Part shown: piece after piece, positions 9,124-15,395 of the stretch
How positions within the stretch are numbered: the first letter of the stretch is position 1
Layout of the letters: each line of letters starts with the position of its first letter
Source of the DNA: an uncultured Lysobacterales bacterium
GTDB lineage: Bacteria; Pseudomonadota; Gammaproteobacteria; Xanthomonadales; Ahniellaceae
NCBI GenBank assembly: GCA_937924195.1
Contig: CALDVP010000145.1
Span: 1 to 33,663 of the forward strand
DNA length: 33,663 nt
Direction: 5' to 3'
Made by a program: the position numbers and the translations under genes
Notes under the pieces: generated by a model
Told to the model about the DNA's origin: nothing
The model's input: the letters and a program-made list of their open reading frames with translations, nothing else
The model's database searches: none

Positions 9124-9969
9124 ATGGCGGCACGCTATCCGGAACTGGCAGGCAAGGTGGCGCTCGTCACCGGCGCCGGGCGCGCGAAGGGCCTCGGCGA
9201 AGCGATGGCGCGGCGGCTCGCGGCCGAAGGTGCGAAGGTGGTCATCACCGACATCGGGCACGCGCGCGGACCCGAGATGCCGGTCACCGCGGTCGGCACT
9301 GAGGAAGAGATGGCGCAGGTCGCGGCGTCGATCCGCGAGGCCGGCGGCGACTGCACCGCGATGGCGCTCGACGTGCTGGACGAGCACCAGGTCAAGGCCG
9401 TGATCGCGGCGACGGTCGAGCGCTACGGGGCGCTCGACATCCTCGTCAACAACGCCGGCATCGGCTACCTGATGAAGCCGATCCTCGAGATGAGCCTCGC
9501 CGAATGGGACGCGGTGCTCGGCGTGAACCTGCGTGGTGCCTTTTTGTGCACCAAGTACGCGGCCGAGCGCATGGTCGCGCAGGGCAGGGGCGGGCGGATC
9601 GTCAACATCGCATCGCAGGCCGCGAAGTCGGGCTTCCCGTTCGCGAGTGCCTACTGCTCGTCCAAGCACGGGATGGTGGGCCTGACCCGCGTGACCGCGA
9701 TCGAGCTCGGTCGGCACGGCATCACCTGCAACGCGATCTGCCCGAATCACGTCACCACCGGCCTCGGCGCGTGGCAGAACGAGTATTTCTCGAAGGCGCT
9801 CGGGCTGACGCTCGATGCCTACCTCGCCGCGATGAAGGGTCGGATCCCGCTCGGCCGTCCGGGTCTGCCGGAGGACACCGCCAGTGCCTGCGCCTGGTTG
9901 TGCTCGGACGAGGCGCGCTACGTCACCGGCGAGGCGATGAACGTCTCAGGCGGCGAGGAGTACCACTGA
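9124..9969 (+). CDS. Short-chain dehydrogenase/reductase
   Basis: A 281-residue classical SDR. The Rossmann motif T-G-A-G-R-A-K-G-L-G lies at residues 16-25, N-N-A-G at 109-112, and the catalytic S164, Y177 and K181 (YCSSK) are all present. The C-terminal part has the usual I-P-L-G-R-P-G-L-P-E-D and the Y-V-T-G-E-A-M-N-V-S-G-G ending. An insert of about 20 residues after the second strand (around 45-65) is longer than usual. It should catalyse an NAD(P)-dependent alcohol/ketone interconversion in the cytoplasm. The stop overlaps the next start (TGATG), coupling it to the third PuuE-like gene. Substrate unknown. Confidence 0.88.
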   Translation: MAARYPELAGKVALVTGAGRAKGLGEAMARRLAAEGAKVVITDIGHARGPEMPVTAVGTEEEMAQVAASIREAGGDCTAMALDVLDEHQVKAVIAATVERYGALDILVNNAGIGYLMKPILEMSLAEWDAVLGVNLRGAFLCTKYAAERMVAQGRGGRIVNIASQAAKSGFPFASAYCSSKHGMVGLTRVTAIELGRHGITCNAICPNHVTTGLGAWQNEYFSKALGLTLDAYLAAMKGRIPLGRPGLPEDTASACAWLCSDEARYVTGEAMNVSGGEEYH

Positions 9970-10901
9970 TGGCGGGGCGTGCAGGCGCTTCGGCACGACG
10001 TCCGCGCAAGCGACTGGCGCCGAAAGTCGACTCGGGTGCACGGGTCGGCTGGCGCTGGCCGAACCGCGCGCGAGTGGCGCTGTCGGTCGTCGTCAACGTC
10101 GAGGAAGGGTCCGAATACACGATCGCCGACGGCGATCCGATCACCGAGCCGGTCGACGAGCTCGACGTCACGCTGTCGAAGCCGATCCGCAACTTCGGCA
10201 ACGAGTCGAATTACCGCTACGGCATCAACGAAGGTCACGCGCGCATCGCGGCGCTGCTGGACCGCTTCGATGTGTCGGCGACCTACACAGCGGCAGCGCT
10301 CGCGCTCGAGCGAGCTCCGGCGATCGCCGACTACATCCGAGCGCGTCGCCACGAGCCGTGCTGTCACGGGTGGCGCTGGATCCACCAGTTCAAGCTCGAC
10401 GAGGCGGCCGAGCGGGATTTCATCCGGCGCGGCCTCGACTCGATCGAGCGCACCACCGGCACGCGGCCTGCTGGCTGGCTGTCCCGCTATCTTCACACCG
10501 CGAATACGCGTCGGCTTCTCCAGGAAGAGGGTTGCCTGTACCACATGGACGACTATTCGGCCGACGCGCCGTTCTGGGGCGTCGTCGAGGGCTCGCCCCG
10601 GCCGATGGTGATCGTGCCGTACCAGCTCGACACCAACGACATGAAGATGTGGCTGGCGCCGTCCTATCTACCGTCGCACTGGCTCGAGTACGCGATCGAC
10701 ACACTCGACCAGCTGCACCGCGAGGGTGCGCATCGTCCGGTGATGATGTCGCTCGGCCTGCACCTGCGGATCATCGGTCGGCCGGGCCGGATCGGTGCGC
10801 TCGAGCGCTTCATCGAGTACGCGGTGAAGAAGCCGGGCGTCTGGTTCGCGCGCCGGATCGAGATCGCGCGGCATTTCGCCGCGATGGTGCCGATGCCGTG
10901 A
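9969..10901 (+). CDS. Polysaccharide deacetylase-fold hydrolase (PuuE-like), copy 3
   Basis: A 310-residue NodB-fold protein. It has the PuuE-like motif 1 VALSVVVNVEEGSEY (residues 36-50), which is closer to known allantoinases than the other two copies in this window. A F-G-N-E-S-N-Y-R-Y-G-I-N-E-G-H segment lies at 76-90, and C-C-H-G-W-R-W with H133 marks the degenerate metal site. The R-P-A-G-W-L-S-R and M-M-S-L-G-L-H-L-R-I segments match motifs 3-5 of the family. Members of this branch open cyclic ureides or imides. Its first 25 residues are basic and probably disordered, with no signal peptide. It overlaps the SDR stop by one base, and its stop overlaps the CitE-like GTG start. Confidence 0.84.
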   Translation: MAGRAGASARRPRKRLAPKVDSGARVGWRWPNRARVALSVVVNVEEGSEYTIADGDPITEPVDELDVTLSKPIRNFGNESNYRYGINEGHARIAALLDRFDVSATYTAAALALERAPAIADYIRARRHEPCCHGWRWIHQFKLDEAAERDFIRRGLDSIERTTGTRPAGWLSRYLHTANTRRLLQEEGCLYHMDDYSADAPFWGVVEGSPRPMVIVPYQLDTNDMKMWLAPSYLPSHWLEYAIDTLDQLHREGAHRPVMMSLGLHLRIIGRPGRIGALERFIEYAVKKPGVWFARRIEIARHFAAMVPMP

Positions 10902-12390: not shown

Positions 12391-12551
12391 GCGGCGAATG
12401 GCAAATGGCGAATGGCAAATGGCCGACGGGAAACGACAGGCGCGTGCGAACGGTTGGGGGGCTGGCCTGCCTTGGATGCTCAGGATTTCCCGATGGAGCG
12501 CACCTCTCGCCCCGGTCCGCATGCCTGACCCATTCGCCCTTCGCCATTCGC
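12391..12551. mobile_element. MITE-like unit with inverted GGCGAATGGC repeats, no gene (unit A)
   Basis: This roughly 160-bp unit lies between the MaoC and acyl-CoA dehydrogenase genes. Its left arm has two perfect tandem copies of GGCGAATGGCAAAT (12393-12406 and 12407-12420). Its right arm (12529-12551), read on the minus strand, matches 20 of 23 bases of the left arm (12394-12416). The 106 bases between the arms carry no convincing gene. Just inside the left arm, ATGGCCGACGGGAAAC resembles ATGGCCAATCGGAAAC at the same place in unit B (13760-14187), suggesting a shared origin. No transposase is nearby, so mobility is inferred from structure only. Confidence 0.6.
12393..12420 (+). repeat. Two perfect 14-bp tandem repeats
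   Basis: GGCGAATGGCAAAT occurs twice in direct succession at the left end of unit A. The same motif family, in inverted orientation, forms the right end of the unit and both ends of unit B. Confidence 0.9.
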
Positions 12552-12585
12552 AATCGACTGATCCACATCAACCGAAGGCTTGCAC

Positions 12586-13758
12586 ATGAACCAACAGCCC
12601 ACGACCGCGCACTGGACCGCTGAGGACGAGGCGACCCTGCTCGACACCATCGACGCGTGGGTCGAGCGCTCGGTGCGGCCGATCGCGCGCGAGTACGACC
12701 AGGAGGACAAGTACCCGCACGAGCTCGTCGAGGAGATGAAGGAGCTCGGCCTCTTCGGTGCGACGATCTCGCCGGAGTATGGAGGCCTTGGCCTGTCGGC
12801 CAGCACTTACGCGAAGATCGTGACCAAGGTGGCTTCGGTGTGGATGGCGCCGAGCGGGATCTTCAATTCGCACCTGATCATGGCCGCTGCGATCGAGCGC
12901 TGCGGTACCGAAGACCAGAAGCGCCGATACCTGCCTCGGATGGCAGCCGGCGAGCTGCGCGGAGGCCTTGGGCTGACCGAGCCGAACGCCGGTACCGATC
13001 TCCAGGCGATCCGCACCGTTGCGAGACGCGACGGGGATCACTACGTCATCAACGGCGCCAAGACCTGGATCACGAATTCGCTCCACGGGAGCGCGATCCT
13101 GCTGCTGGTCAAGACCGATCCCGAGGCCCAGCCGCGGCACAAGGGCATGAGCATGTTCATCGCCGAGAAGGGCGAGGGGTTCATCGTCGCGAAGAAGATG
13201 AAGAAGCTCGGCTATCGGGCGATCGACACCTGCGAGCTGGTGTTCCAGGACTACCGGCTGCCGGCCGACTGTCTGCTCGGCGGCGAAGAGGGGCGCGGCT
13301 TCCAGCACGCCGTCGGCGGCCTCGAGCTCGGTCGCATCAACATCGCCGCGCGTGGCGCCGGCATCGCTGAAGGCGCGCTCAGGATGGCGGTCCGCTATGC
13401 GCAGGAGCGCAAGACCTTCGGCAAGCCGATCTGCGAGCACCAGGCGATCCAGCTGAAACTCGGCGAGATGGCGGCCAGAGTCGAGGCGGCCAAGCTCCTC
13501 GTCGAGAGTGCCGCGCGCGCCTACGACACCGGGCAGCGCTGCGACATGGAGGCCGGCATGGCGAAGTACTTCGCGACCGAGACCGGCGTCTTCTGCGCGC
13601 AGGAGGCGATGCGGATCTTCGGTGGCTACAGCTACTCGACCGAGTACGAGATCGAGCGCTTTTACCGGGACGCGATGCTGATGTGCATTGGCGAGGGCAC
13701 GAACGAGATGCAGCGGATCATCATCGCCAAGCAACTCGTCGAGCGGAACCGCATCTAA
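12586..13758 (+). CDS. Acyl-CoA dehydrogenase
   Basis: A 390-residue flavoenzyme of the acyl-CoA dehydrogenase family, full length. Landmarks: L-F-G-A-T-I-S-P-E-Y-G-G-L-G near residue 55, G-L-T-E-P-N-A-G-T-D in the FAD/substrate region, W-I-T-N-S, R-K-T-F-G-K-P-I, M-R-I-F-G-G-Y-S-Y-S, and the catalytic base E370 in IGEGTNEMQR. It oxidises an acyl-CoA to the 2-enoyl-CoA, passing electrons to ETF. The ATG at 12586 has a GAAGG 9 bases upstream. The gene is bracketed on both sides by GGCGAATGGC-type inverted-repeat units, with unit B starting at the base after the stop. In context it could make an unsaturated dicarboxyl-CoA such as mesaconyl-CoA; this is inference. Confidence 0.9.
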   Translation: MNQQPTTAHWTAEDEATLLDTIDAWVERSVRPIAREYDQEDKYPHELVEEMKELGLFGATISPEYGGLGLSASTYAKIVTKVASVWMAPSGIFNSHLIMAAAIERCGTEDQKRRYLPRMAAGELRGGLGLTEPNAGTDLQAIRTVARRDGDHYVINGAKTWITNSLHGSAILLLVKTDPEAQPRHKGMSMFIAEKGEGFIVAKKMKKLGYRAIDTCELVFQDYRLPADCLLGGEEGRGFQHAVGGLELGRINIAARGAGIAEGALRMAVRYAQERKTFGKPICEHQAIQLKLGEMAARVEAAKLLVESAARAYDTGQRCDMEAGMAKYFATETGVFCAQEAMRIFGGYSYSTEYEIERFYRDAMLMCIGEGTNEMQRIIIAKQLVERNRI

Positions 13759-13759
13759 C

Positions 13760-13774
13760 GGCGGATGGCGAATG
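13760..13774 (+). repeat. Left terminal inverted repeat of unit B
   Basis: GGCGGATGGCGAATG, matched perfectly by the reverse complement at 14165-14179. It starts one base after the TAA stop of the acyl-CoA dehydrogenase gene. Confidence 0.85.
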
Positions 13775-13778
13775 GCGT

Positions 13779-14156
13779 ATGGCCAATCGGAAACTCGAGC
13801 GGCTGTGCTTGGCCCACTACGACCTCGATACGGGGCAGGAAGCAATGCGGTTGGCTTGCGACGGGTACGTCCTCACGCAAGAGCAGCCGATGAATGAACG
13901 CTCGGGACTGGTGTCCCGGATGCGGCGGGCGGCGCTATGCGTCGTGTCGAACGTTGCCGAGGGTGTCTCTCGCGGCCGGGGTGCGGCGTTCGGGCGGTAT
14001 CGGACCGTCGCGAGAGAATCCCTGATCGAGGTCGATAGCCAAGTGTGGACGGCACCGGAGCTCGGGCTGTGCAAACCGTCGAGCGCGATGCCCGATCACA
14101 TGGCGACGTGCTTCAAGTCGATCAATGGCCTCATGACGGCACGGGGCAGACGGTGA
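13779..14156 (+). CDS. Four-helix-bundle protein (23S rRNA intervening-sequence protein family)
   Basis: A 125-residue helical protein. The family signature is clear: A-M-R-L-A-C-D-G-Y-V-L-T in helix 1, N-E-R-S-G-L-V-S-R-M-R-R-A-A at the start of helix 2, V-V-S-N-V-A-E-G in the middle, G-R-Y-R-T-V-A-R-E-S-L-I-E-V-D-S-Q in helix 3, and an I-N-G-L-M ending. Members were first seen inside intervening sequences of 23S rRNA genes and are related in fold to the Avd protein of diversity-generating retroelements; their role is unknown. This copy is free-standing between metabolic genes and lies within inverted repeats. The ATG at 13779 follows the left repeat. Its stop overlaps the GTG start of the CoA transferase. 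Confidence 0.78.
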   Translation: MANRKLERLCLAHYDLDTGQEAMRLACDGYVLTQEQPMNERSGLVSRMRRAALCVVSNVAEGVSRGRGAAFGRYRTVARESLIEVDSQVWTAPELGLCKPSSAMPDHMATCFKSINGLMTARGRR

Positions 14157-15367
14157 CCGAATCTCATTCGCCATCCGCCATTCGCGATTTGCCGCTGTCG
14201 GGCCTTCGGATCCTTGCGGTCGAGCAGTACGGCGCGGGTCCCTACGGCTCGATGTTCCTCGCGGACCTCGGTGCCGACGTCATCAAGATCGAGTCGCCAC
14301 CCGGCGGAGATGTCTCGCGCGCGACGGGTCCGTACTTTCTTGGCGGTGGCGACAGCCAGTTCTTCCAGACCTTCAATCTCAACAAACGTTCGATCCGGCT
14401 CGACCTGAAGCACCCGGACGGGCGCCGGATTCTCGAGCGCCTGGTCGCCACCGCGGACGCGGTGATGAACAACCTCCGCGGCGACCAGCCGGCCAAGCTC
14501 GGCCTCGATTACGCGGCGCTCGGGCCTATCCGGCCTGCGATCGTGTGCGCGCATCTGTCGGCCTACGGTCGGGATAATGAACGCGCGGCCTGGCCGGGCT
14601 ACGACTACCTGATGCAGGCCGAGGCCGGATTCATGTCCCTGACCGGGGAGCCGGCGGGGCCGCCTGCGCGCTTCGGGCTCAGCATGGTCGACTTTATGAC
14701 CGGAACGATCACGGCGCTGGGTCTGCTCGCTGCGGTCCTCGGCGCCCAACGCAGTGGCCGCGGCCGGGACGTCGATGTCTCGCTGTTCGACGTCGCGCTG
14801 CATCAGCTGAGTTATCCCGCCACCTGGTTCCTCAACGCCGGCCACGAGACCACGCGGCTGCCACGCTCGGCCCATCCGGGCACGGTGCCCTGCCAGCTCT
14901 ATCGCACGGCCGACGGCTGGGTCATGGTCATGTGCATGCTGGAAAAGTTCTGGCAGGCATTCGTCGAGGGCATCGACCGACCGCAGCTGGCGGCCGATCC
15001 GCGCTTCGCCGACTTCGCCGCCCGGCGCCAGCACCGCGATGCATTGACGCCGCTCGTGGACGAGGCGCTGATGGCGCGTCCCACCGGGCACTGGATCGAG
15101 CGCTTCGCAGGCCGGATCCCGATCGCTCCGGTGTTCGACATTCGCCAGGCGCTCGAGAATCCGTTCGTCGAGCGGAGCGGGATGCTGCAGACCGTCGCCC
15201 ACCCGGAGGGTCCCCAGCGCATGCTCCGAAGTCCGATCCGGCTCGACGGTCAGCGGCTCGACGGACGGGCGTGCCCGCCTTGCGGAGCCAATGGTGAGGA
15301 ACTGCTGCGCGAGGTCGGCTTCGCTCCAGCCGAGATCGCGGCCTTCCGCGCGCGCGGCGCGATCTGA
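14153..15367 (+). CDS. CaiB/BaiF-family CoA transferase, copy 1
   Basis: A 404-residue class III CoA transferase. Seen: L-P-L-S-G-L-R-I-L-A-V-E-Q-Y-G-A-G-P-Y opening, L-A-D-L-G-A-D-V-I-K-I-E, N-K-R-S-I-R-L-D-L-K, the probable catalytic aspartate in S-M-V-D-F-M-T-G, and G-R-D-V-D-V-S-L-F-D-V-A-L. These enzymes move CoA between a CoA ester and a free acid through an aspartyl-CoA anhydride. The GTG at 14153 (ACGGGGC upstream) overlaps the four-helix-bundle stop; residues 2-12 are encoded by the right inverted repeat of unit B. A TTG at 14189 is an alternative original start, since family homology begins only there. Together with copy 2 it may activate the dicarboxylate made upstream. Confidence 0.85.
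   Translation: MTESHSPSAIRDLPLSGLRILAVEQYGAGPYGSMFLADLGADVIKIESPPGGDVSRATGPYFLGGGDSQFFQTFNLNKRSIRLDLKHPDGRRILERLVATADAVMNNLRGDQPAKLGLDYAALGPIRPAIVCAHLSAYGRDNERAAWPGYDYLMQAEAGFMSLTGEPAGPPARFGLSMVDFMTGTITALGLLAAVLGAQRSGRGRDVDVSLFDVALHQLSYPATWFLNAGHETTRLPRSAHPGTVPCQLYRTADGWVMVMCMLEKFWQAFVEGIDRPQLAADPRFADFAARRQHRDALTPLVDEALMARPTGHWIERFAGRIPIAPVFDIRQALENPFVERSGMLQTVAHPEGPQRMLRSPIRLDGQRLDGRACPPCGANGEELLREVGFAPAEIAAFRARGAI
14165..14179 (-). repeat. Right terminal inverted repeat of unit B, inside the CoA transferase N-terminus
   Basis: CATTCGCCATCCGCC, the perfect reverse complement of 13760-13774. In the CoA transferase frame it encodes part of the peptide SHSPSAI, which precedes the conserved region of that enzyme. 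Confidence 0.85.
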
Positions 15368-15395
15368 TCGGCGAGGACTGAAGGGAGTGTCGGCG

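Follow-up and report, generated by a model that had tools for sequence, protein, structure and literature searches.

In Coxiella, heptamers adjoin the S23 open reading frame (ORF) of the rRNA intervening sequence (IVS) (PMC4990558), and the IVS, as an ORF-bearing element, was proposed to be mobile by Ralph and McClelland (as cited in PMC4990558). G-rich heptameric repeats (GGGAATC, GGGGA(C/T)T) are likewise known from Xanthomonas and Nostoc, where they are intergenic and form 70–75 inverted pairs per Xanthomonas genome; they were interpreted as quadruplex-forming, and no general link to mobile elements was reported (PMC4692102). Neither four-helix nor Xcc0516 turned up in a search of the text of that paper. 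Here we analyse a stretch of 33,663 nucleotides (the window; contig CALDVP010000145.1, our C145) from the 2.56-Mb, 87% complete draft genome of an uncultured Lysobacterales bacterium (G000), where two hairpin units, the non-coding A and the gene-bearing B, lie within one operon. Unit B is probably a relative of the IVS element of 23S rRNA that lies outside ribosomal genes, with a gene for the S23 intervening-sequence protein (S23/IVP) between heptamer arms, and unit A its non-coding counterpart, similar to a miniature inverted-repeat transposable element (MITE). On balance we favour, with some reserve, a family of hairpin elements, coding as well as non-coding, that depends on the IVP and in which the IVP element of a genome and the mostly intergenic, non-coding hairpins share one heptamer "word". 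The Xanthomonas heptamers with their inverted pairs, the Coxiella heptamers and the proposed IVS mobility are thus already known; relative to the papers searched, the links of non-rRNA IVP genes to matched heptamer arms and of the resident IVP word to the hairpin word are apparently new. No paper linking IVP genes to heptamers was found in the open-access literature, most subscription journals lying outside its scope.

A heptamer word shared by IVP genes and hairpins

Unit B (13760–14193) is a PF05635 gene flanked by inverted arms of tandem GGCGAAT heptamers, 29 nt long and 83% complementary (13759–13787 and 14166–14194). The encoded protein belongs to the S23/IVP family, scoring above the curated cut-offs of both PF05635 (62.7 bits, cut-off 33.8; E=4e-17) and TIGR02436 (56.5 bits, cut-off 24). 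As in the 23S IVS of Coxiella and Leptospira, the same protein family lies between inverted repeats in about 430 nt, and the inverted-repeat stem encloses the S23 ORF. Unlike an IVS, unit B is located between protein genes (dehydrogenase and CoA-transferase) and outside any 23S rRNA gene, and it has heptamers on both arms together with non-coding hairpins of the same word across the genome; no 23S signature words were found across all IVP loci examined. Unit A (12393–12552) is a non-coding hairpin having the heptamer GGCGAAT in common with unit B, its arms pairing over 22 nt with 91% complementarity (the start of the right arm, at about 12530, is approximate). These are the two period-7 tracts of the window, each with an inverted partner, and 300 second-order Markov shuffles gave 0.02 such tracts per window and none with an inverted partner. 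An Rfam search of the region returned no family match.

The word tends to follow the gene across genomes, as judged by genome-wide counts based on pattern searches and samples. PF05635 is present in 52 of the 151 relatives. GGCGAAT, with one mismatch allowed, occurs in three of the 151 genomes only, the window genome, G001 (congeneric) and G005 (another genus of this family), exactly those carrying this IVP. Within the family f1, GGCGAAT arrays (up to 2 mismatches in 21) number 85 in G005, 21 in G001 and 7 in the window genome, and none was found in the seven members without IVP. Similarly, GTGACGC was found only in G015 (169 matches), the genome with a GTGACGC IVP, and GTGTGAA only in G035, G060 and G083; in G035 and G060 this word also forms IVP arms. 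GGGATTC is tied to the gene less closely: it gave 59–126 matches in each of five genomes with an IVP between accB and accC, and matches in 12 other genomes too.

In a sample of 400 kb of G060, 25 of 35 period-7 tracts lay within one mismatch of one of six resident IVP words (for locus L035, and probably for L095, the word was assigned manually from the sequences of its arms). Random word sets of other genomes gave an expectation of 3.8 (sd 1.8), and 0 of 2000 sets reached 25. The six IVP copies of G060 differ in their word, which rules out words specific to the genome rather than to the element. Relatedness among IVPs is also mirrored in their words (Mantel r -0.19, 0 of 1000 permutations). 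Pairs with more than 70% identity account for most of this, and for that part common descent would be explanation enough.

Heptamers might also arise passively, slippage and hairpin-templated repair creating and matching them while the IVP gene merely hitch-hikes. Whole-heptamer differences in copy number between the window genome and G001 fit such an origin, as does the polymerase-footprint idea found in the literature (PMC4679880, PMC4692102). We nevertheless consider it improbable. The same 400 kb of G060 held 0–2 tracts for each of the periods 5, 6 and 8–12 against the 35 of period 7, IVP-free genomes (G003, G013, G026, G002, G010) had 0–1 period-7 tracts in 60–400 kb, and the word tracks the resident IVP. 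Other IVP genomes showed 0 to 3 period-7 tracts in 40–80 kb.

Several observations weigh against an IVP-dependent family. Period-7 tracts were absent from three IVP genomes (80 kb sampled); G083 has five GTGTGAA matches without an IVP of that word; GGGATTC tracts occur in six genomes without a detected IVP (G090, G104, G109, G068, G114, G105); and G022, with 92 GGGATTC matches, has GGGGACC as the arms of its sole detected IVP. At the operon sites C, D and E described below, no insertion with a target-site duplication was caught and none was readable, no clean junction was found, and neither D nor C is a clean empty site where the copy is lacking. The related genomes compared for word sharing are not independent, and word sharing is no proof of protein action in trans.

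Apart from this, a very long GGGATTC array of more than 25 heptamers was noticed at G068:C1:130033–130221, in a genome without detected IVP.

Matched arms of IVP elements across phyla

Beyond the relatives, other genomes from more than 20 phyla contributed at least 570 PF05635 loci, and 35 viral contigs also carry the family. After removal of duplicates, 178 IVP loci from Lysobacterales, more than 20 phyla and viral contigs were retained. Inverted arms scoring at least 16 were present in 141 of them, and 138 exceeded the 99th percentile (16.06) of shifted-window controls from the same loci. Across more than 20 phyla and the viral contigs, the best period of the strong arms was 7 in 146 of 172 cases and 8 in 15. 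The 103 elements whose heptamer is clear use as many as 84 distinct words, and the two arms of each element nonetheless match. The left arm, read on the strand of the IVP gene, is G-rich.

Such matching could be maintained at the level of RNA, if the arms formed a stem cut by RNase III as in 23S intervening sequences, separating or stabilising cistrons, with the protein being incidental. Unit B does fold well as RNA (z -3.1), and the IVP gene is on the operon strand in every carA/carB and accB/accC case found. Yet the arm mismatches (171 against 203) show no bias to G.U-compatible changes, a test that could be distorted by strand-biased mutation, and thus the matching does not look like selection for an RNA stem and points instead to DNA as the level of matching. 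Selection on the stem, as sought by this G.U asymmetry, left no signal. Moreover, a stem alone requires neither a period of 7 nor a common word throughout the genome, and both neighbours lie on the IVP strand in just 83 of 180 loci (longest-ORF method). An element acting through RNA therefore seems unlikely to us.

Some loci deviate in form. Arms of period 8 occur in the IVP elements L209, L251, L260, L272 and L289 (for example CAGCGAGT in Granulicella), and L058 (G012:C117) has compound arms of GGGGAACG repeats followed by small palindromes. L066 (G054:C50:23500–27900) is a nest of elements in which 3 kb hold three PF05635 genes, and one of these has an internal stop. At L285–L319 (IMG/VR), matched heptamer arms accompany IVP genes on contigs classed as viral, which may be real phage or host fragments.

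A possible role of the IVP protein

Seven IVP genomes that have heptamer families (G000, G001, G015, G035, G038, G079, G140) yielded no reverse transcriptase domain (PF00078). Y1 transposases show no association with IVP (40 of 52 IVP genomes vs 68 of 99 others), and no heptamer tract was found closer than about 1 kb to any of 20 Y1 genes. Either enzyme as an obligatory helper was accordingly rejected, and for the same reasons we propose the IVP itself as the probable agent, acting on DNA. The protein would recognise its own heptamer word and, in trans, maintain and spread arms carrying it, hairpins probably being copied to new places, perhaps with the aid of host replication or repair. It may work as a multimer reading successive heptamers, a proposal made because a homopentamer of Xcc0516 is mentioned in PMC4990558; Xcc0516 (PDB 2gsc) matches the IVP profile with E=3e-40.

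Systems with comparable parts differ in important ways. Short intergenic hairpins with coding and non-coding members are also typical of repetitive extragenic palindromic (REP) sequences with their Y1 transposase RAYT and of MITEs, yet there is no linkage or co-occurrence with Y1 here, and the arms are tandem heptamers that vary by element. Avd of diversity-generating retroelements, homologous to PF05635 as stated in PMC10053308, works with a reverse transcriptase, whereas several heptamer-rich genomes here have none; a retroelement of this kind combines reverse transcriptase with Avd, and the seven genomes lack PF00078 (template and variable repeats were not searched for). The intergenic tandem heptamers and inverted pairs of Xanthomonas and Nostoc are alike, and are probably the same hairpins.

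Perhaps a broader class of bacterial mobile elements exists, in which a four-helix-bundle protein works with neither a transposase nor a reverse transcriptase: it would set a heptamer word and write or copy it to inverted arms throughout the genome, the word drifting between lineages and staying uniform within an element family. This class, as the source of most prokaryotic heptanucleotide repeats, is put forward as a tentative possibility that we would not bet on. The narrower family of IVP-dependent hairpins would join two old puzzles, the role of the widespread S23/IVP protein and the abundance of seven-base tandem repeats. In many bacterial genomes these repeats outnumber all other longer microsatellites, and the link of IVP with hairpins may help to explain them. 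If IVP maintains its own word in trans, an unexplained class of repeats becomes a protein-linked element family reaching over more than 20 phyla and viral contigs.

As a separate observation, nine reverse transcriptase matches, several of them scoring identically, were seen within 29 kb of G060 (C1:3792391–3820990).

The operon in relatives and the history of its units

The operon encodes, by Pfam and NCBIfam, a RipC-like lyase, a RipB-like hydratase, an acyl-CoA dehydrogenase and two family III CoA-transferases. Unit A is placed between hydratase and dehydrogenase, and unit B between dehydrogenase and the first CoA-transferase, starting directly 3′ of the dehydrogenase stop (TAA, 13756–13758), as the original prediction for this stretch had it. 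The stop of the IVP gene overlaps the GTG start of the CoA-transferase gene (GTGA, 14153–14156); the right end of unit B (14153–14193) is therefore coding for the N-terminus of that enzyme. The same overlap is seen with an identical layout in G001 and, with ATG as the start, in G005. Coordinates are collected in Table 1.

Table 1. Features of the operon region in the window, with their state in G001 and G005
Feature	Position	Strand	Basis and comparison
Site D	9967–10046	+	hairpin in G001 and G005; 72 nt of other sequence in the window instead
Unit A left arm, tandem heptamers GGCGAAT/GGCAAAT	12393–12423	+	period-7 tract; same heptamers in G001, one fewer; other heptamer (AGGGCCC type) on both arms in G005
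Unit A interior, non-coding; inner motifs GGGAAACG... and ...CCTGACCC common to hairpins at other sites, centre variable	12424–12529	+	alignment with G001 and G005 hairpins
Unit A right arm, inverted heptamers	12530–12552	-	inverted repeats; G001 longer by 14 nt (two heptamers)
Acyl-CoA dehydrogenase gene, ordinary operon member	12586–13758	+	Pfam/NCBIfam; same position in G001 (98%) and G005 (91%)
Unit B left arm, degenerate heptamers GGCGGAT GGCGAAT GGCGTAT GGCCAAT; contains ATG of the IVP gene	13760–13790	+	period-7 tract, inverted repeat; perfect heptamers in G001/G005
PF05635/TIGR02436 four-helix-bundle gene (S23/IVP, 23S rRNA intervening-sequence protein), 125 aa	13779–14156	+	profile matches
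Unit B right arm; doubles as coding for the N-terminus of the next gene (CoA-transferase)	14164–14194	-	inverted repeat; comparison with G001/G005
Site C	15365–15395	+	perfect 99-nt GGCGAAT hairpin only in G005; none in window or G001

The original prediction, made on this stretch alone, had recognised, at the places confirmed here, two inverted-repeat units of one family, a short non-coding one and a long gene-bearing one, and had suggested that, with no transposase at the locus, a factor might act in trans; all of this stands. Its end motif of 14–15 bp resolves into tandem heptamers, which also recur elsewhere in the genome as expected (a degraded hairpin at C52:22158–22239 and a single arm at C236:3686–3709). 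What does not hold is the composite element with the dehydrogenase as cargo, breaking the operon as an inserted block: the gene is in place in all three genomes carrying it and is consequently no cargo. Nor do two units around one gene need a special event, since G005 has five (A to E) around the operon and about 21 GGCGAAT places genome-wide. That an unseen transposase moved A, B and the dehydrogenase together has next to no probability left. The heptamers of A and B are indeed identical in the window and in G001, but in G005 that of unit A differs from that of unit B, and the synteny, the many further units found by the GGCGAAT pattern search, the lack of Y1 association and the missing reverse transcriptase all speak against a gene block bounded by copies that such an enzyme serves.

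Both G001 and G005 have unit B at the identical place. Random sequence instead of the repeats, which the original prediction had named as a sign against it, was not seen at sites A and B, while at C, D and E some genomes lack the unit; the hairpin at site E was found only in G005 among the three genomes compared. Units have thus been gained or lost between close relatives at these three sites. Dispersed copies with related ends and a coding member, as in MITEs, are found in G005, with its GGCGAAT places and one IVP; related interior motifs are confined to a subset of hairpins in the alignment across G001 and G005.

The IVP gene itself is under purifying selection elsewhere (ratios of nonsynonymous to synonymous substitution rates, dN/dS, of 0.07–0.13, with dS near saturation in these pairs). 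This selection would suit a regulator whose binding sites are the intergenic heptamer hairpins, changing together with its specificity, and so would the common word within a genome and the position of hairpins next to stop codons. Such a regulon is, in our opinion, quite improbable, as dozens of sites must switch their word in step, most IVP genes sit within the same hairpin structure, and units turn over between close relatives.

In the window genome the IVP/heptamer system is decaying. Its IVP has a dN/dS of 0.68 against G001 (G001 against G005, 0.09) and departs from the alignment at five otherwise invariant residues (W5G, Q33R, S40C, I45V, G66E), and to judge from these changes it is probably inactive. 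No intact array of three GGCGAAT remains, and the guaB/guaA hairpin is eroded, its orthologue in G001 being better kept.

At their sites the elements are long-lived. A quick maximum-likelihood tree joins the three IVPs of the unit B site (support 96) and likewise the seven accB/accC IVPs (support 92); 10 of 11 carA/carB IVPs fall in one region, the Chryseobacterium copy standing apart; this grouping by site indicates that elements persist long at their sites. Arm similarity is higher within elements than between orthologues, both at carA/carB (0.76 vs 0.49) and at accB/accC (0.70 vs 0.58). The words change on both arms while the elements stay where they are.
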